22,285 bases of DNA from a virus. The notes under the pieces are model-generated. The model searched no databases. It worked only from the letters and a program-made list of their open reading frames with translations, and was not told the DNA's origin. Positions 9,861 through 17,235 of this stretch are shown here, in pieces. Numbering within the stretch: the stretch's first letter is position 1; each line of letters begins with the position of its first letter. The stretch is taken from the IMG/VR virus record IMGVR_UViG_3300044646_000990, positions 1-22,285 of that record; one strand, written 5' to 3'. The translations under genes were made by a program, and so were the position numbers.

Positions 9861-10904
9861 CTACTTTGAACTTATTTCTGCTACTCTTGCCTTTGAAAAC
9901 TTGAGCATAGCACTTCTGATTGGAGAGTAGCCAAGATCTTCAGCCTTCTTGCCACAGGTATCAAGCATAAAGTTAAAGAACTTTTTAACGGAATCATTTT
10001 TTGAGTTCTTCTCTTTGTATGCTATACCGTATGTGAATGTTGATATGTTATAGGATAGTTTATTAGGGTTCTTGTAATTAATTTTAACTACGCCACTCTT
10101 GTCTGGGACAAAGTCTCCAAGGAATACTGACGCTGCACTCACTGTTGGCTGTATAAACCTTCCAGCCTCATTCTCAACAGAGACTGTCTTTAGTCCTCTT
10201 GCATATGATATCTCATTGTATCCAATAGATCCATTTGTAGTTCCTTGTACCATTGCAATTCCATGAGACCCAGAAGCGCTGGTCATATAACTCTTAGATA
10301 TATCTCCAGGGAATGCAGTACCAAAGTTTTTATTCCCTGGTTTGTTCCATATAGTTGGAGCAACTGCATTAAGGTATGAGGTAAAAACTTCTGAAGTTCC
10401 AGAACCATCAACACGGTATACAACTCTAATCTTTGTTGCTGGTATCTTAGGTAGTTTTCCTGATATAAGGTTTTCTTTTAATATCTGTGGGTCGTTCCAC
10501 ATTGTTATTTGTCCCGCAAAAACTTTAGCAAGGGTATCTTTACTCATCTTGATAGTAACTTTATATCCATCAAGTTTGTAGATAATTCCAATTGGCCCTG
10601 CTACCAATGGAACATATACAAACTCTTTTGATGGCTTTACTTCTGTACCAGAGTAAGGAACATCTGACATAGCAAAGTCTGTTACTCCATTTGAAAACAT
10701 ATTCTTTCCAGCACCTGATCCAGATGCTCCATATACAACAGAATCTCCTGTTGATTTCATAAATTCGACCCTGCATCTGTCTATAAAGTTAGCAGCAAAT
10801 GTGGATCCAGCACCTTGAAGGTTGTCAGCATGTGAAGGGGTAATAAAAAAAGCATTAGCAAATATGGCTAATGCTACTGGTAAAGCAATGAATTTAAATT
10901 TCAT
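9861..10904 (-). CDS. pstS: Phosphate ABC transporter substrate-binding protein PstS
   Basis: 347 residues from the ATG at 10904, chosen because TATACT lies six bases upstream and the N-terminus is then a signal peptide (KFKFIALPVALAIFANAFF then SHA before Asp27). There is no lipobox Cys, so the product is secreted or periplasmic-like rather than a lipoprotein. Phosphate-binding signatures: GAGSTF (31-36), YGASGSGAG (58-66), DFAMSD with D81, and RVDGSGT (164-170). It captures phosphate for the host PstCAB importer. No pstCAB gene accompanies it, the usual state of phage-borne pstS. Flanked by two structured elements. Regulation by the host Pho system is likely but no clear Pho box is seen. 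Confidence 0.95.
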   Translation of the reverse strand: MKFKFIALPVALAIFANAFFITPSHADNLQGAGSTFAANFIDRCRVEFMKSTGDSVVYGASGSGAGKNMFSNGVTDFAMSDVPYSGTEVKPSKEFVYVPLVAGPIGIIYKLDGYKVTIKMSKDTLAKVFAGQITMWNDPQILKENLISGKLPKIPATKIRVVYRVDGSGTSEVFTSYLNAVAPTIWNKPGNKNFGTAFPGDISKSYMTSASGSHGIAMVQGTTNGSIGYNEISYARGLKTVSVENEAGRFIQPTVSAASVFLGDFVPDKSGVVKINYKNPNKLSYNISTFTYGIAYKEKNSKNDSVKKFFNFMLDTCGKKAEDLGYSPIRSAMLKFSKARVAEISSK

Positions 10905-10910
10905 ACTTAC

Positions 10911-10916
10911 AGTATA
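10911..10916 (-). promoter_or_regulatory. -10 box for pstS
   Basis: TATACT on the - strand six bases before the pstS ATG. It lies one base from the + strand -35 at 10918-10923, so pstS and the + strand transcript share one control region. Confidence 0.7.
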
Positions 10917-10917
10917 T

Positions 10918-10946
10918 ATGACAAGGCTATAAACTTTTGTTATAAT
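10918..10946 (+). promoter_or_regulatory. + strand promoter divergent from pstS
   Basis: ATGACA (10918-10923), 17-base spacer, TATAAT (10941-10946) with TGT before it. It would start a transcript near 10953 running through the E2 element. A 24-codon frame begins at 10971 (MNNEQFMDLL) but has no ribosome site. Confidence 0.55.
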
Positions 10947-10981
10947 TGGTAAACTAAGAATTAAATTTAGATGAATAATGA

Positions 10982-11064
10982 GCAGTTTATGGACTTGCTC
11001 AGGTCTCCCAGGGTGCGACCCTGGCTTGTCCGTACTCAGCAATAAGGTTGCTAAAAGCAACTGC
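10982..11064. ncRNA. Candidate structured RNA E2 (between pstS and hsp20)
   Basis: An 83-base multi-branch fold: P1 GCAGTT (10982-10987) with AACTGC (11059-11064); P2 ATGGAC (10989-10994) with GTCCGT (11028-11033), including a U-G pair when read on the + strand; an apical hairpin CCAGGG-TGCGA-CCCTGG (11008-11024); and P3 AGCAA-TAAGG-TTGCT (11038-11052). All helices nest. Promoters face it on both strands (+ at 10918-10946; - TATAAT at 11089-11094), so the strand is unsettled. The U-G pair favours +; the similarity of layout to E1 favours -. Blocks GACTTGC, GGTCTC and TAAGG recur in the same order in E1. Confidence 0.5.
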
Positions 11065-11088
11065 ATGTATCATGACGGAATACTATCT

Positions 11089-11094: not shown

Positions 11095-11511
11095 CTATTT
11101 AATTTTAATAGATTTTGGCTTTTTGTCTTCAGGAACAATGCGTACAACATTTACATGTAGCATACCATCCTTTAGTTCTGCAGAAGTTACTTCCATGTAC
11201 TCTCCCAGTGCAAAAGATCTTACAAACTTTCTTCCTGCGATTCCCTTGTGAACTACCTCTGCATCTGTCACTTCAACAATCTCACCCTTGATGATCAGTG
11301 TTCCATTATCTACTGAAACATCAATATCGTCTTTTGAAAAACCAGCGACAGCCAGTGAAATCTTGTATGTATCTTCATCTAGTTTGATTAGATCATACGG
11401 AGGGTATGACTGTGAGTTTGTTTTATGTGCTGTATTTAGGCGACTCAACTCTCTGTTGAAGCCAATAAAAAAAGGATCATTGAATAGATCCATAGCGTAC
11501 TTTGTTACCAT
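11095..11511 (-). CDS. Small heat-shock protein, Hsp20/alpha-crystallin
   Basis: 138 residues. The N-terminal arm (MDLFNDPFFIGFNREL) is followed by the alpha-crystallin domain at about 37-127: YPPYDLIKLDEDTYKISLAV, GFSKDDIDVSV, and the late RKFVRSFALGEYMEV with AELKDGMLHVNV. The C-terminal KSIKIK carries the I-x-I anchor for oligomer assembly. This is an ATP-independent holdase. Phage versions are frequent in aquatic phages and may protect folding of virion proteins. Unlike most units here it has an untranslated leader (about 45 bases) and a real Shine-Dalgarno, AAAGGGG, eight bases before the ATG. A hairpin covers that site. Confidence 0.92.
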   Translation of the reverse strand: MVTKYAMDLFNDPFFIGFNRELSRLNTAHKTNSQSYPPYDLIKLDEDTYKISLAVAGFSKDDIDVSVDNGTLIIKGEIVEVTDAEVVHKGIAGRKFVRSFALGEYMEVTSAELKDGMLHVNVVRIVPEDKKPKSIKIK

Positions 11512-11512
11512 G

Positions 11513-11572
11513 TTATTCCCCTTTCAAGCGAATAAGTTAATTCCCCCCATTTGGGCAGGTATAAATATTATA
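11513..11572 (-). promoter_or_regulatory. hsp20 promoter and 5' leader hairpin
   Basis: TATAAT (11567-11572, TGA before it) overlaps the stop of the next gene. In the leader TTATTC (on the + strand gaataa, 11530-11535) pairs with GAATAA (+ ttattc, 11513-11518), placing most of the AAAGGGG ribosome site in the 11-base loop and its last G in the stem, two bases from the ATG. A heat-melting switch is possible. Confidence 0.4.
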
Positions 11573-12410
11573 TCATATTGTATATAGACTCAGCAATATG
11601 GATTTGTTGATGAAATCCCCAATGACCAGGGGGCCAATAGGCGTAGTCTGCTGCGTTATCAAAAAACTCATTATCAGAAAACTCTAAATGGCATCCAATG
11701 TTTTTTGGTATTTTACTATTTAAGTAGGCGCTCTCAAAATATGTATCAGTAAAATCTTTAAAAGAGTATGGTTCTAAAGTTGAATCATTATAATAGGTCC
11801 ATAATAATTTTATGTTATTGGATTCGCAATATTGAATAAATATTTTTAAAAATAAAATATTATAAAAAATTCCAAATTCTTCGGGCAAAACATTTTCTGC
11901 CATATGGGGCTCTTTAGAAAACTTTTCAATTAATTTGTTTGAAAGCATTGCTTTTCCTATATTTTCTCTAGACTCTGAGTCATTGTCTTTTTTGTCATTC
12001 ATTACTGTAAAATTTATTAAGGGAACCTCAATCCTTGCTATTGGGAATACTGCAAATATATATTCAGGATGGTGAAATTCTTTAAAAAACTGAAATGCTT
12101 TAATTATTTGTGCTTGCATTCCTTCTCCACCTTTTGCTAAATTAACATAATCTTTATTCATTTTTTCTGATATTAGGTAAGGCCATGTCAGTTCTATAGG
12201 CATTCCATGTCCTTCTGTTTGAGAGCATCCCAAAGTTAAAATTTTTTGATTGTTAAACTCATCACATCTATATCCTTGAGAGTTTAGTTTATACTCAATT
12301 AAAACAGAATCTGCTTCTATTTTAGGAATACCATTATTACTCATTTCTTTTAAAGATCTATTAACAAAAATATTTGGTATTGTCTTTGGTGTGTATTTTT
12401 TATTAATCAT
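11568..12410 (-). CDS. SGNH-like protein C
   Basis: 280 residues related to the proteins at 12492-13331 and 14711-15682. Shared blocks: ILTLGCSQTEG (S63 as the SGNH-type nucleophile), NLAKGGEG (N90 and Gly block), and a C-terminal GHWGFHQQIHIAE with H263. The residue three before that His is Pro260, not the Asp of a DxxH, so the triad is altered. SGNH enzymes are esterases or acyl-transferases acting on glycans. No signal peptide or membrane segment is seen. It has its own leaderless promoter (TAGGAT at 12417-12422), so it can be made independently of the carbamoyltransferase operon upstream. Confidence 0.65.
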   Translation of the reverse strand: MINKKYTPKTIPNIFVNRSLKEMSNNGIPKIEADSVLIEYKLNSQGYRCDEFNNQKILTLGCSQTEGHGMPIELTWPYLISEKMNKDYVNLAKGGEGMQAQIIKAFQFFKEFHHPEYIFAVFPIARIEVPLINFTVMNDKKDNDSESRENIGKAMLSNKLIEKFSKEPHMAENVLPEEFGIFYNILFLKIFIQYCESNNIKLLWTYYNDSTLEPYSFKDFTDTYFESAYLNSKIPKNIGCHLEFSDNEFFDNAADYAYWPPGHWGFHQQIHIAESIYNMI

Positions 12411-12416
12411 TAAACT

Positions 12417-12422
12417 ATCCTA
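12417..12422 (-). promoter_or_regulatory. -10 box for SGNH-like gene C
   Basis: TAGGAT with TGA before it, six bases before the ATG at 12410. The 70 bases upstream to 12491 are AT-rich with no gene visible. Confidence 0.55.
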
Positions 12423-12491
12423 TCACTCTATTAGTAAATATATTTATCTTTAAATATTTTCTTTTTTTTAAACTTAAACAGTATGTATAGC

Positions 12492-13331
12492 CTAACTTTT
12501 CTTATTATTTTTTTCATTTTCCCTCGCTTCGTAAAATTTTTCTGCCCAGTACCTATGGAATACCAGCCCTTTGTGTCCATCATTTTTGGTCAGGTTGTAT
12601 TTAACGGTTTTTGTTTTATCTTCATGCTGTTCAAAAATTTTTTTTATATTTAACTCCATATTTTTTATATCTAAAGAAATAAATTTTTTAAATTCATATT
12701 CTTTAAAGATGTCTTCTTCATCACCAAACCATGTAGACCAAAATAGTTTTGTATTGGATGCAGAGCAAAATGATTCTAGCAGTCTCAAACATATCACTGA
12801 GTTTCCATGTGCATTTACAAACTCTGCATCCGTAAAGTTATTTTCATCCGCCCGAATATTGTTTAGAAAAAATGAGTTTTCAGTGTCAGCAGTATGTTTA
12901 TGACTGTATAAAATAGTTCTATATGTTTCTGGAATTAAAAAATATATTTCATCTGGCACACCGAAGTTATCTACATACTGCATTAATTTTAGAATTTGTA
13001 TTGTTATTCCATCACCTATACTTGCAATATTATAATATCCACTGACGCTTTCTTTTTCTTTTATTTTTTTATAAAGGATGTATGCCCATGCTTCGTCTAG
13101 CCCATGGTTAGATCCTTGTGTTTCAGAACACCCCATAAAAAGTATGTGCTTTCCGTTGTGTGTGTCTATAAAATTATCGCACCTAAATCCAAAAGAGTTA
13201 AAATCATCAAGCATACTTTCTGGATAGTTTTTTCTAAAATCTAAATCAGTCTCACCCATTGTATTAAATATAAGATCTTTATTATTTAAAAATAAATCTT
13301 TAACTATCTTATGATATAATCTTTTTGTCAT
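12492..13331 (-). CDS. SGNH-like protein B
   Basis: 279 residues. Blocks: ILFMGCSETQG (S69), YYNIASIGDG (N101, G106), DEIYFLIPETYRT, and near the end NDGHKGLVFHRYWAEKF with H253. Asn250 stands where DxxH needs Asp, though D251 is adjacent. It aligns end to end with protein C and with the core of protein A. It overlaps the carbamoyltransferase gene by 23 bases, so the two are made from one message with coupled translation. This suggests that it acts on the same substrate, perhaps removing or adding an acyl group. The tail is Lys/Asn-rich (ENEKNNKKS). Confidence 0.65.
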   Translation of the reverse strand: MTKRLYHKIVKDLFLNNKDLIFNTMGETDLDFRKNYPESMLDDFNSFGFRCDNFIDTHNGKHILFMGCSETQGSNHGLDEAWAYILYKKIKEKESVSGYYNIASIGDGITIQILKLMQYVDNFGVPDEIYFLIPETYRTILYSHKHTADTENSFFLNNIRADENNFTDAEFVNAHGNSVICLRLLESFCSASNTKLFWSTWFGDEEDIFKEYEFKKFISLDIKNMELNIKKIFEQHEDKTKTVKYNLTKNDGHKGLVFHRYWAEKFYEARENEKNNKKS

Positions 13332-14730
13332 AGTTTAACTCCCAACTACCTATATCATGTTCATCATTTAGTAGTGGTTGCCCTTTAATGTTTAAACTAG
13401 TATTAAGAAGTATCGGAACACCAGTTTGTAAATAAAATTTATTCAAAACCCTGTATAGCCCTGGGTGCTGTTCTTTTGTAACTGTTTGAACTCTTGATGT
13501 GCCGTCTGCGTGTACCACAGAGGGGATCTTGTCAGGCTGCAGGCACTTAACTGTGTACTGCATATAAGGACTCTCAAAGTCCATATCAAACCATTTGGAG
13601 GCATGCTCTGCCATAACTACTGGGGCAAAGGGTCTAAAAAGTTCTCTCTGTTTAATTAGATTTACCTTGTCTTTAATTGATGGATCTCTTGGGTCCGCAA
13701 GTATACTTCTATTTCCTAATGCTCTTGGGCCATACTCTGCTCTTCCTGTTGCTACTGCTACGATTCCGTCTTTCAATATGCCGTCCAAAATTTTCTGAAC
13801 AGGGTACTCTCCACCAAGGTCATAGCCAAGATAAGGAGTCTTCCAATCAAGATGCTTTCCATATAGGGCTGCTGATGCGCCTAAAGAACTACCAGCATCA
13901 CCAGGGTTAGGCATGATCCAAATCATATCAAATATTTTCCACAGCAGTGTATTTGCGGATGAGTTTAGTGCACATCCACCCATGAATACTAAATTATTTT
14001 TGCCAGTTAAACTTTTTGCCATACGCATGAATTGATTTAGCCTTTGCTCGTATACCATTTGTACTGCTGCTGCTATATCAAACTTATCTTGTTCTGAAAC
14101 CCAACCCCAGTCAGTTATTCCTTTATGAAAATTATATTTTTGTTTATCATAACTTGGGAAATATTCGTCTACTTTTTTATAATACTTTTGCCAGTCTCCA
14201 TAGGCAGCCATCCCCATCATAATATATTCTTCTTGATTTGGCATTAAGCCTATTAGTTGTGTGAATGCTGAATAGAATAGTCCGAAACTTACTGGATAGT
14301 TTTGTTTATACTTTAGTTTAATCTTGTCGCCTTCACCAACCCAAATTGTGGAGGTATTGTATTCACCCATAGCATCTAAAACAACAATTACAGCATCGTT
14401 GAACAAACTCGTATAGTATCCTGCTGCTGCATGAGAATAGTGGTGGCTAAAGGATTTTCTAGGTATTCCTTCAATATTAAACTGTGGTTTCCAGTCTCCA
14501 GATCCACCCCTTAAAGCCAGTCTAGAGGCCTTTAGAAGAGGTTTCTCGTAGTATGCTATAGCATTAGGGGTGCCGTACTGCAAAGCATTAGTGATTAAAC
14601 TATCATTCACATACCAATCATTTTTTTGCTTACTATACCTTTCAGCATGTCCAGCAAAAAGTATCTCTCCATCTTTAATTAAAGAGACAGATGCGTCGTG
14701 AGAGGTTTCGTTAATTCCAAGGATTATCAT
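13309..14730 (-). CDS. NodU/TobZ-type O-carbamoyltransferase
   Basis: 473 residues from the ATG at 14730; an earlier in-frame ATG would add ten residues inside the previous gene. Family marks: ILGINETSHDASVSLIKDG at the N-terminus, the metal site HHYSH (H96, H100), LDAMGE (119-123), GGCALNSSAN (251-260), PNPGDAGSSLG, and the carbamoyl-transfer motif YGPRALGNRS (333-342). These enzymes move carbamoyl from carbamoyl-phosphate through carbamoyl-AMP to a hydroxyl of a sugar; phage relatives have been reported to act on hydroxymethylated cytosine. It is about 100 residues shorter than NodU, ending soon after LLNTSLNIKGQP. Sandwiched between two SGNH-like genes in one operon. Acceptor unknown. Confidence 0.88.
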   Translation of the reverse strand: MIILGINETSHDASVSLIKDGEILFAGHAERYSKQKNDWYVNDSLITNALQYGTPNAIAYYEKPLLKASRLALRGGSGDWKPQFNIEGIPRKSFSHHYSHAAAGYYTSLFNDAVIVVLDAMGEYNTSTIWVGEGDKIKLKYKQNYPVSFGLFYSAFTQLIGLMPNQEEYIMMGMAAYGDWQKYYKKVDEYFPSYDKQKYNFHKGITDWGWVSEQDKFDIAAAVQMVYEQRLNQFMRMAKSLTGKNNLVFMGGCALNSSANTLLWKIFDMIWIMPNPGDAGSSLGASAALYGKHLDWKTPYLGYDLGGEYPVQKILDGILKDGIVAVATGRAEYGPRALGNRSILADPRDPSIKDKVNLIKQRELFRPFAPVVMAEHASKWFDMDFESPYMQYTVKCLQPDKIPSVVHADGTSRVQTVTKEQHPGLYRVLNKFYLQTGVPILLNTSLNIKGQPLLNDEHDIGSWELNYDKKIIS

Positions 14731-15682
14731 TATCCAACTCTCTCTTAAATCGTTCTGCAATGTGTATGTGTTGATGAATACCTATGTGTTCTTTATCATG
14801 CCCTGTGTTCCAAACTGTTTTTATTTTATTTTCTTTAATATCCTTATGGCAAGAAAGATTTTCAAACTCAAGTTCATCAAAATTAAATTCTTTAGGTTCT
14901 AAGTAGTTTGAGTATTCAGAAAAACTTTCTTTTAACATTTTTAAAAACAAATTTGTTGTGTGATTCCAAGAACTATATTTAAAATAAATATTATTTTGTT
15001 TGCAGTATTCGTTTAGTAGTAAAATTGATTGAAGGTTTTTGTAAAGGGCTTGAGTAAATGGAATAACGTCTAAAGGACTATGAGGAAGAACACTTAACTT
15101 ATTAACTTTGTGATCATCGGATGGTCTTAAAAACCAGTGTTGTACGAGTTCATGCTTGTTTAATGGGGTTGGCATCTCTATTTTATTACTATCTACCCCT
15201 TCTATTCTTCCTAAGTCTGGGTATAATACTAACAAAACTTTTGGGTTTCCATTTTTTTGAAAGTGATGCATTAATCCCTTTAATATTGACTCTGCTCCCC
15301 AGCCACCCATGCCTAAGTTTAGGGCTTCTTTACCGTAAGAATCTGCAATTTGAAAACCCCATATATCCTTGTAAGATCCATCTTTAACTTCTGGCTCTGT
15401 TATGTGATCTCCATGCGTCTGGGAACAGCCTGAAAAAACAAATTCGTAGTACTTGTTAAAGTCTTGGTCCATAGGTCTGTATCGGTAATCTTCAAGTTGT
15501 TGATCAAAAGTAAAAAAACTTAAAGCCTTAGATTGAGTAGTTGAATGAGAGGCAAGAATGTCTTTTAACTCTTCCAGAAACAGGGACATCTCTTCATTGC
15601 TGTATTTATTTTTAGAGTCAACTGTAATACCTTGAAAAAACCTAGTTAAAAAATCAAAAAATCTTCTGTTTATTTCGTTCAA
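14711..15682 (-). CDS. SGNH-like protein A
   Basis: 323 residues, TTG start whose TTGA overlaps the stop of a 27-residue peptide gene, so translation is coupled. Blocks: VFSGCSQTHG (S87), ALNLGMGGWG (N122), VLLVLYPDLGR, and TGHDKEHIGIHQHIHIAE with D296-x2-H299. It is therefore the only one of the three SGNH-like proteins that keeps the full Ser-Asn-Asp-His set, and it is the best candidate for an active esterase or acyltransferase. The N-terminal 60 residues are an added helical region. It overlaps the carbamoyltransferase by 20 bases. A role in glycan acyl modification is inferred from fold and context. Confidence 0.7.
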   Translation of the reverse strand: MNEINRRFFDFLTRFFQGITVDSKNKYSNEEMSLFLEELKDILASHSTTQSKALSFFTFDQQLEDYRYRPMDQDFNKYYEFVFSGCSQTHGDHITEPEVKDGSYKDIWGFQIADSYGKEALNLGMGGWGAESILKGLMHHFQKNGNPKVLLVLYPDLGRIEGVDSNKIEMPTPLNKHELVQHWFLRPSDDHKVNKLSVLPHSPLDVIPFTQALYKNLQSILLLNEYCKQNNIYFKYSSWNHTTNLFLKMLKESFSEYSNYLEPKEFNFDELEFENLSCHKDIKENKIKTVWNTGHDKEHIGIHQHIHIAERFKRELDNDNPWN

Positions 15683-15762
15683 TATATAAACCTGTTGTCT
15701 TTCTTTTTAAAGATTTTTTTTATTTTATAATAAACTTTATACATTAAGTACTTTAGTATCAT
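15679..15762 (-). CDS. Basic micropeptide, 27 aa
   Basis: 27 residues, Lys/Tyr-rich (MILKYLMYKVYYKIKKIFKKK), strongly positive and amphipathic, so membrane-surface binding is possible. GGAG lies four to six bases before the ATG, a proper ribosome site. The stop TGA overlaps the TTG start of SGNH-like gene A. It stands first after the operon promoter and may serve mainly to load ribosomes onto the SGNH gene. No family recognised. Confidence 0.5.
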   Translation of the reverse strand: MILKYLMYKVYYKIKKIFKKKDNRFIY

Positions 15763-15780
15763 TTTTTCTCCTATTATTAA

Positions 15781-15809
15781 ATTATATCATAGAAAAGCAG
15801 GCCTGTAAA
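15781..15809 (-). promoter_or_regulatory. Promoter of SGNH/carbamoyltransferase operon
   Basis: TTTACA (15804-15809), 17-base spacer, TATAAT (15781-15786) preceded by TGA, on the - strand. The -35 sits inside the upstream terminator hairpin, so this unit starts within the previous unit's stop signal. The leader is about 12 bases with GGAG. Confidence 0.7.
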
Positions 15810-16953: not shown

Positions 16954-17235
16954 TTACTCCATTGTTAATGATTGCCATGTCATTCCCCAGTCATCCTTGC
17001 TCTTGTGGCTAGAAAACTCTTTTGATATTTCACCATTCTCTAAGTATACACCACCCCAGACTCCCCACTCTTTTCCTGAAATTCCAACAGAAAAGCAGTC
17101 TTTCCTTACTGGACAGGATGAACAAAGAGCATCAATTGCTGGTCTTAGTAGTTCATCTTCCTCATATTTATCAAAAAATAAGTTTGTATCATAGTCTAAA
17201 CAAACAGCATCATCTTTCCATTTAAACTTATTCAT
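16954..17235 (-). CDS. WhiB-family iron-sulfur transcription factor
   Basis: 93 residues. The four cluster cysteines are C12, C38, C41 and C47 (CSSCPVRKDC), and the WGVWGG turn at 57-62 is the sigma-factor-binding and DNA-side signature of Wbl proteins. It would bind a [4Fe-4S] cluster, contact domain 4 of the host main sigma factor and redirect transcription, or respond to redox changes. The C-terminus after the turn lacks the usual basic AT-hook cluster and is acidic/Ser-rich, so DNA contact may be weak and it may act mainly on the sigma factor. Wbl proteins are confined to Actinobacteria and their phages. Confidence 0.93.
   Translation of the reverse strand: MNKFKWKDDAVCLDYDTNLFFDKYEEDELLRPAIDALCSSCPVRKDCFSVGISGKEWGVWGGVYLENGEISKEFSSHKSKDDWGMTWQSLTME

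Follow-up and report, generated by a model that had tools for sequence, protein, structure and literature searches.

A recurring family of basic micropeptides beside SGNH-like proteins and a NodU/NolO-type carbamoyltransferase in aquatic phages: a possible phage-encoded peptide-modification cassette

What do the enzymes of a phage carbamoyltransferase cluster modify? The question is raised by a 22,285-base virus record of IMG/VR (IMGVR_UViG_3300044646_000990, positions 1 to 22,285; the whole stretch is hereafter the window), which carries on its minus strand a carbamoyltransferase (CT) gene and genes for three SGNH-like proteins, A, B and C. We found that the same cluster holds two basic micropeptides, mp1 and mp2, belonging to a peptide family that recurs in aquatic phages. 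We hold with moderate confidence that the cluster is a phage-encoded peptide-modification cassette working like a pathway for ribosomally synthesized and post-translationally modified peptides (RiPPs); in our best reading, the micropeptide would be the substrate or scaffold of that cassette. A preliminary description of this DNA had proposed a dedicated modification pathway around the CT, an idea that fits the recurrent SGNH neighbours and the SGNH fold of A and B described below, but the targets proposed there (a glycan or a DNA base) omit the conserved micropeptide. In the open-access literature (closed-access papers being outside the scope of the search) we found no published description of the cassette or of the peptide family, and the accessible main text of a paper on phage RiPPs (PMC11118758) does not contain the terms carbamoyl, crocagin or SGNH.

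The genes of the cluster, all on the minus strand, are ordered in the direction of transcription as mp1, A, CT, B, mp2 and C, followed by an HSP20 gene and a PstS-like gene. The first micropeptide, mp1 (MILKYLMYKVYYKIKKIFKKKDNRFIY, 27 amino acids [aa], with the C-terminal residues RFIY; 15679..15762), has a ribosome-binding site, AGGAG, at 15768..15772, and shares 4 nucleotides (nt) at its stop with the TTG start of A (323 aa; 14711..15682). A in turn overlaps the CT gene (ATG start, 473 aa; 13309..14730) by 20 nt, and the CT gene overlaps B (279 aa; 12492..13331) by 23 nt, which bears out the overlap-joined chain of micropeptide, A, CT and B described previously. The second micropeptide, mp2 (MKKIIRKVRLYILFKFKKKKIFKDKYIY, 28 aa, with the C-terminal residues KYIY; 12431..12517), which was absent from that description, begins within the 3' end of B and leaves a gap of 20 nt to C (280 aa; 11568..12410). 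A related contig of 118 kb carries the same cluster, with an identical copy of mp1 and a variant of mp2 that differs by one residue.

The peptide family was first spotted among small open reading frames (ORFs) at the starts of SGNH and CT genes, where [FY][IT]Y is a recurrent end of basic peptides. When ORFs of 22-36 aa with a net charge of at least +6 and a Shine-Dalgarno-like site were collected at the starts of SGNH or CT genes irrespective of their C terminus, 52 of the 54 unique ORFs ended in [FY][ITVLMF]Y (of the other two, one seems to be the 3' part of a different gene); scanning the interior of the same SGNH and CT genes as a control gave two ORFs, neither of which has this end. In the relatives of the window the peptides are about 25-34 aa long and strongly basic, with a body dominated by basic and aromatic residues and the end [FY]-[I/T]-Y, and the net charge reaches at least +6 in 73 of 83 ORFs with the end (a set limited to ATG starts). 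The stop codon and the downstream start often overlap (TAATG or ATTGA).

The position of these peptides in phage genomes is equally regular. We surveyed the best 80 of 560 CT loci (949 kb, both strands), taking the end as the criterion and including GTG and TTG starts, and obtained 78 basic peptides in 62 loci. For 74 of them an SGNH gene (35 peptides) or a CT gene (39 peptides) follows no more than 300 nt downstream, four sit no more than 300 nt behind an SGNH gene and have neither an SGNH nor a CT gene in the next 300 nt, and none lies elsewhere. A DNA pattern for the CT start matched at least 119 stretches with 84 unique upstream contexts, in 42 of which a peptide ends no more than 18 nt before the CT gene. 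Eight relative contigs of 109-119 kb contain 12 such peptides, every one placed at -3 to +53 nt relative to an SGNH or CT gene, compared with 0-0.1 such peptides in each of the Markov-resampled versions of these genomes. Peptide and SGNH gene also occur together: 45 CT contexts flanked on each side by 1.5 kb or more comprise 30 with both, five with SGNH only, one with peptide only and nine with neither (Fisher p 2e-5), and the full set of 97 CT contexts, many of them cut short, comprises 52 with both, nine with SGNH only, 14 with peptide only and 22 with neither (p 4e-6; two apparent false positives among 73 peptides are retained in these counts). No peptide was found on the opposite strand across the 97 contexts. 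The related contigs are metagenomic and mutually non-independent. SGNH-like genes recur beside this CT in many phage contigs, in agreement with the neighbourhood association expected previously. BLAST comparison of single micropeptides with the INPHARED phages gave no match, which the low-complexity filter and the short length may explain.

The peptide body is under purifying selection at the protein level. Among 114 distinct peptides collected, the ratio of nonsynonymous to synonymous substitution rates (dN/dS, from 94 pairs) is 0.20 for the whole peptide and 0.24 when the start and the last three codons are removed. The C-terminal tripeptide is the most conserved part, its codons varying (TTT/TTC, TAT/TAC, ATA/ATT/ATC/ACN) while the residues stay constant. 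We compared the body, minus its last three residues, with the neighbouring proteins using 2000 permutations, and found that it covaries with the adjacent SGNH protein both where the SGNH gene is upstream (rho 0.39, n = 42, equalled in 0/2000 permutations) and where it is downstream (rho 0.215, n = 33, 1/2000), and that it does not covary with the CT (rho 0.04 and 0.06). Because the body covaries with the SGNH protein, and because the CT is 85-100% identical among the best 80 of the 560 CT loci, a variable body goes with a variable SGNH protein and a constant end with a constant CT.

The CT matches both domains of its family over their cut-offs (PF16861 at 6e-54, 182.5 bits against a cut-off of 27; PF02543 at 2e-32, 113.4 bits against 24), it matches phrog_1601 (1e-104), and its sequence relatives in the PDB likewise place it as a NodU/NolO-type enzyme, so that the NodU-type label given to it previously holds and carbamoyl transfer is its predicted activity. 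Residues H96, H97, H100, D119 and D278 are invariant across seven aligned CTs, and these positions presumably form a Kae1-like active site. The Nol-like CTs of cyanophages and pelagiphages (phrog_1601) are homologous to the CT of the window, with 28-41% identity among the 40 matches listed, and are sometimes found near 2-oxoglutarate (2OG) oxygenases, as is the case in part of the micropeptide loci. Fourteen regions around other phage CTs were fetched, and 13 contain neither such a micropeptide nor an SGNH-family match at E <0.01. The exception, which has both, is the marine virus AG-345-D19 (L107); its CT gene shows an apparent N-terminal frameshift at about 5.8-5.95 kb, probably a sequencing artefact of this single-cell contig.

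The contig of AG-345-D19 encodes a CT 41% identical to that of the window, two SGNH-family ORFs and, before the CT gene, a basic ORF ending in DPYIYEE. A blind DNA scan of IMG/VR with the pattern DP[FY]IYEE-stop matched 32 contigs, and every match ends a short frame (18-56 codons; 25 distinct ORFs); 31 of these frames have a start and encode 28-54 aa, the remaining one (L387) being cut by the contig end. SGNH and/or CT genes are present on the same strand in 28 of the 32 contigs over the stretch examined, and within 3 kb of the peptide in 27, with both genes in 15. Three of the four exceptions (L379, L382 and L387) are cut no more than 0.8 kb upstream of the peptide, and the fourth (L395) retains 1.1 kb on the upstream and 10 kb on the downstream side. 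These marine peptides are longer than those of the window's relatives and have, at their end, one or two acidic residues after DP[FY]IY. The order 2OG-Fe(II) oxygenase, peptide, SGNH, SGNH, CT is found in 8/32 contigs, and a radical S-adenosylmethionine (SAM) homologue lies within 3 kb of the peptide in 8/32; radical SAM enzymes are common in peptide-modifying clusters. In three loci (L380, L375 and L388) the micropeptide, and the SGNH gene with it, adjoins radical SAM homologues, and in L380 three such homologues match PF04055, one of them with a SPASM domain over cut-off.

Neither Pfam, at its cut-offs, nor PHROGs, at values better than 0.02, gives a match for A, B or C, and A has no match among the INPHARED phages. 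Their relatives from the first 105 loci form one diverse hidden Markov model family of 83 distinct ORFs with a median isoelectric point (pI) of 5.9, and the family alignment has 61 members with a mean column identity of 21%. A handful of the 61 have matches to Pfam GDSL lipases (best 2.2e-6), and the family profile matched GDSL/TesA-like chains of the PDB through the first block (9otv, 1.2e-4). AlphaFold2 models support an SGNH fold for A and B, as supposed in the preliminary description (mean predicted local distance difference test score 81.6 for A and 88.7 for B), and the 50 structural matches listed for these models are mostly SGNH/GDSL chains (Z 11-15); C is assigned to the family by its sequence. 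A structural second look placed CgnD (8a2n), a protein of the crocagin pathway discussed below, at rank 1 for both models: for A with Z 14.0 over 205 residues at 4.0 Å, tied with rank 2 (13.4), and for B with Z 15.3 over 222 residues at 4.3 Å, 1.1 above rank 2. Foldseek's own ranking for A and B puts other SGNH esterases ahead of CgnD.

Ser, Asp and His are each invariant in 61/61 aligned members of the family, and correspond to S87, D296 and H299 in A, S69, D251 and H253 in B, and S63, D255 and H263 in C. The preliminary description saw one active and two altered proteins here: only A was thought to keep a full Ser-Asn-Asp-His set, with B and C keeping Ser and His and having Asn250 and Pro260, respectively, at the Asp position. 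The part concerning Ser and His stands. For C, the alignment gives Asp255 and not Pro260, with seven residues between Asp255 and His263 in an arrangement common to its close relatives; because the Asp is invariant in all 61 members and C has it, the label 'altered' fails for C, and A is not alone in its set. For B the matter is uncertain, since Asp251 is present (Asp251-Gly-His253, a shortened D-x-H spacing found in 4/61 members) and Asn250 occupies the spot that a DxxH spacing would give Asp. The Asn equivalent to N122 of A is present in all three proteins. The block III motif of SGNH proteins is GxND; in what may be the corresponding region of this family the consensus is FPDxxR (Arg159 in 61/61, Asp156 in 32/61). 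Several marine SGNH relatives lack the usual Asp before GHPG and may therefore use another arrangement (a regular-expression check of the triad in these proteins, 12/25, was crude and was set aside). Two further observations concern proteins of this kind. Cluster c37 (L051, L053, L071 and L077; about 250 aa, starting MTNILIVGDSHT) is a second type of GDSH-motif protein beside the CT, recovered neither by the A/B/C family model nor by Pfam. The viral protein A0A6J5LTW5 (602 aa), named as a radical SAM protein, matches the SGNH fold of A and is possibly a radical SAM-SGNH fusion.

Two bacterial pathways offer a comparison. In the crocagin pathway of Chondromyces crocatus (CgnA-E, CgnI and CgnL), as given in the accessible text (PMC10070186), the precursor has an 18-residue basic leader and an Ile-Tyr-Trp core, and is processed by a dioxygenase with two peptide-binding partners, by CgnD (release), by CgnL (N-methylation) and by CgnI (carbamoylation). 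On that account the phage cassette resembles it in several parts: a short precursor-like peptide in which a basic leader precedes a conserved aromatic tripeptide near or at the C terminus, an SGNH-fold protein (CgnD, the rank-1 structural match of A and B), a carbamoyltransferase (CgnI) and a 2OG-dependent dioxygenase (CgnC), a 2OG oxygenase being found beside the peptide in the 8/32 marine loci already mentioned. It differs in the acidic residues that follow the motif in the marine phage forms and in its SGNH genes, which number up to three copies. In the std RiPP cluster of Streptomyces thermodiastaticus, according to the accessible part of a preprint (PMC13174530), a NodU-like CT carbamoylates a lysine in a conserved C-terminal motif of the precursor peptide; that CT, unlike the phage one, carries a fused S8/S53 peptidase and has YcaO-TfuA and MNIO enzymes as partners, and the std gene list as presented there names no SGNH protein. 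Given these precedents and the presence of the same kinds of parts in the phage cassette, we hold a RiPP-like role to be the most likely one.

Such a role is consistent with a short precursor-like gene beside candidate modifying enzymes and with a core-like motif, the [FY][ITVLMF]Y end of 52/54 unfiltered ORFs. We infer a modification of the peptide, its chemistry, the order of its steps and a role for the product in the infected cell as follows. The peptide would serve as substrate or scaffold for the cassette enzymes, its variable body being recognised by the neighbouring SGNH protein and its near-invariant aromatic end, or a nearby lysine or other amine, being carbamoylated by the NodU-type CT; in some phages the 2OG-Fe(II) oxygenase encoded next door would probably hydroxylate the peptide before carbamoylation. 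The SGNH protein would act on the peptide through Ser-Asp-His chemistry, either as a releasing protease, like CgnD, or as an acyl transferase. More tentatively, we suggest that these loci may represent a widespread virus-encoded RiPP-like class of freshwater (probably actinobacterial) and marine phages, in which a dedicated NodU-type enzyme carbamoylates the [FY]IY end and the peptide is further tailored by SGNH proteins co-evolving with its body and, in part of the phages, by 2OG or radical SAM enzymes, releasing a small bioactive compound during infection.

Several points weigh against a peptide-modification cassette. No modified peptide has been seen, and the phages also hold glycan genes, so that the CT and SGNH proteins may act on a glycan. 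The peptide is undetected in 18/80 CT loci and missing from 31/97 CT contexts with any flank and from 14/45 well-flanked contexts, five of these 14 having an SGNH gene. Linkage and co-inheritance of neighbouring genes alone may yield the covariation with the SGNH protein, without recognition. Basicity is lower in the marine peptides (their last 30 residues carry a net charge of 0 to +7, at least +3 in 26/32), and the oxygenases and glycosyltransferases of the 118-kb relative lie outside the cluster, mostly tens of kilobases away. CgnD is not among the PDB matches of the SGNH family profile at E up to 10, and the fold that the models of A and B share with CgnD shows no function. The crocagin core, as described, ends in Trp (IYW), whereas the phage family ends in Tyr ([FY][IT]Y), and among the motif-bearing phage peptides we found no Tyr-Trp core. 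Crocagin-like clusters are defined by CgnB/CgnE, and the likeness here covers the peptide, SGNH, CT and 2OG parts; with a core that lacks Trp and a comparison that stops short of CgnB/CgnE, we do not class the cassette as crocagin-like.

The enzymes might instead act on a glycan of the host surface or virion, the CT carbamoylating it and the SGNH proteins acylating or deacylating it, with the peptide as an accessory (a membrane anchor, a targeting tag or a host-enzyme inhibitor), like the seroconversion cassette of phage D3, which also has a short inhibitor peptide. We consider this unlikely. SGNH proteins of solved structure include many carbohydrate esterases or acyltransferases, and Oac of D3 acetylates lipopolysaccharide (PMC11436027). 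The glycosyltransferase family PF11397 occurs in 5/8 relative contigs, PF04488, PF11397 and epimerase genes are found together in the 118-kb relative, and sugar or tail-fibre genes lie near the CT in four cyanophage regions; with such genes in the same phages, a glycan keeps its place among the targets proposed in the preliminary description. The operon in the window, however, contains no glycan gene, other cyanophage CTs sit in regions devoted to replication or to the photosystem, some marine loci place radical SAM or 2OG enzymes next to the peptide, and a glycan target leaves unexplained both the tripeptide as the most conserved part of the peptide and the covariation of its body with the SGNH protein. 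The other target proposed there was a DNA base, and a NodU-type CT (PF02543 and PF16861) from a phage-like virome contig does carbamoylate 5-hydroxymethylcytosine in the MetaGPA study, as far as its text is accessible (PMC8670742). In favour of such an activity here, 2OG oxygenases are present in 8/8 relative contigs, as are sub-threshold matches to TET/JBP. The MetaGPA system, on the same partial account, co-occurs with a thymidylate synthase family gene and is mentioned with neither a micropeptide nor an SGNH partner, whereas thymidylate synthase/dCMP hydroxymethylase (PF00303) is found in 0/8 of the relative contigs and TET/JBP (PF12851) over cut-off in 0/8, these contigs being possibly incomplete. 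These counts speak against DNA-base carbamoylation, which also leaves the peptide unexplained and which we regard as highly improbable.

It is improbable, too, that the micropeptide is a regulatory leader, that is, an upstream ORF at whose [FY][IT]Y-stop ribosomes stall or reinitiate, setting the translation of the SGNH and CT genes without the peptide being a product. The frequent stop/start overlaps and the placement of 74/78 peptides upstream of an SGNH or CT gene would suit this function. The 4/78 peptides placed behind an SGNH gene, and lacking an SGNH or CT gene in the next 300 nt, would not, nor would the acidic residues between motif and stop in the marine forms, the dN/dS of 0.24 in the body, or a covariation with the SGNH protein that holds even where the SGNH gene is upstream of the peptide. 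A peptide that acts unmodified, either as a small cofactor or activator binding the SGNH protein or the CT or as a cationic effector that acts on membranes and is produced together with them, we judge to be no more probable than a leader. Its basic and aromatic body, with the charge of at least +6 in 73/83 ORFs, accords with such a function, and a basic body could bind an SGNH protein, given the median pI of 5.9 of that family; a fixed aromatic end beside modifying enzymes, and 2OG or radical SAM neighbours in some marine loci, are better explained by modification.

Around the cluster, a promoter-like site (TTTACA-17-TATAAT with an extended -10, 11/12 matches; 15781..15809, minus strand) lies 5' of mp1, in a region where such sites are not enriched (35 compared with a mean of 33.0 in shuffles). 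C had been described as having a promoter of its own, but the promoter scan of the region found no promoter-like site directly 5' of C; mp2 lies between the end of B and C, so that C follows a second micropeptide. Directly 3' of C is the HSP20 gene (11095-11511, minus strand) and beyond it the gene for a PstS-like phosphate-binding protein (9861-11066, minus strand); both genes also recur near the CT in related loci, and HSP20 is found near two cyanophage CTs. The 118-kb relative (L121-L126) encodes two PF04488 glycosyltransferases. In regions at about 81.9-88.8, 97.6-100.3 and 105.1-105.9 kb it also has a cluster of 2OG-Fe(II) oxygenases beside tail-like genes, a PF11397 glycosyltransferase (a hydroxyproline N-acetylglucosamine transferase-like family) accompanied by an epimerase and, by eye, a possible radical SAM protein, and a protein with collagen repeats. 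The genes of these regions point to a possible hydroxylation and glycosylation of a tail protein.

The window also encodes a WhiB-like regulator (16954-17235, minus strand), which suggests an actinobacterial host, WhiB being an actinophage marker in two studies (PMC10202952, PMC6802176); this host assignment is a guess. A scan of GTDB genomes with the single CT protein, made to find the host by homology, gave no match. A scan with the CT alignment found distant cellular CTs, 45-46% identical at best among the best 80 matches listed, and among these the peptide is present only at L287, a contig of a metagenome-assembled genome with a GC content of 36% that is possibly viral.

If the micropeptide is the substrate of the cassette, a compact route to a modified peptide is encoded by many aquatic phages, and its product could serve in host regulation, in the exclusion of other phages or in protection of the virion. 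At about 28 residues, these peptides are short enough to escape the usual gene-length filters. The existence of two bacterial pathways in which a NodU-type CT acts on a peptide makes the idea directly testable and, even without modification, the peptide provides a concrete partner, and a handle on function, for the Nol-like CTs of phages and for the uncharacterised SGNH proteins encoded beside them.

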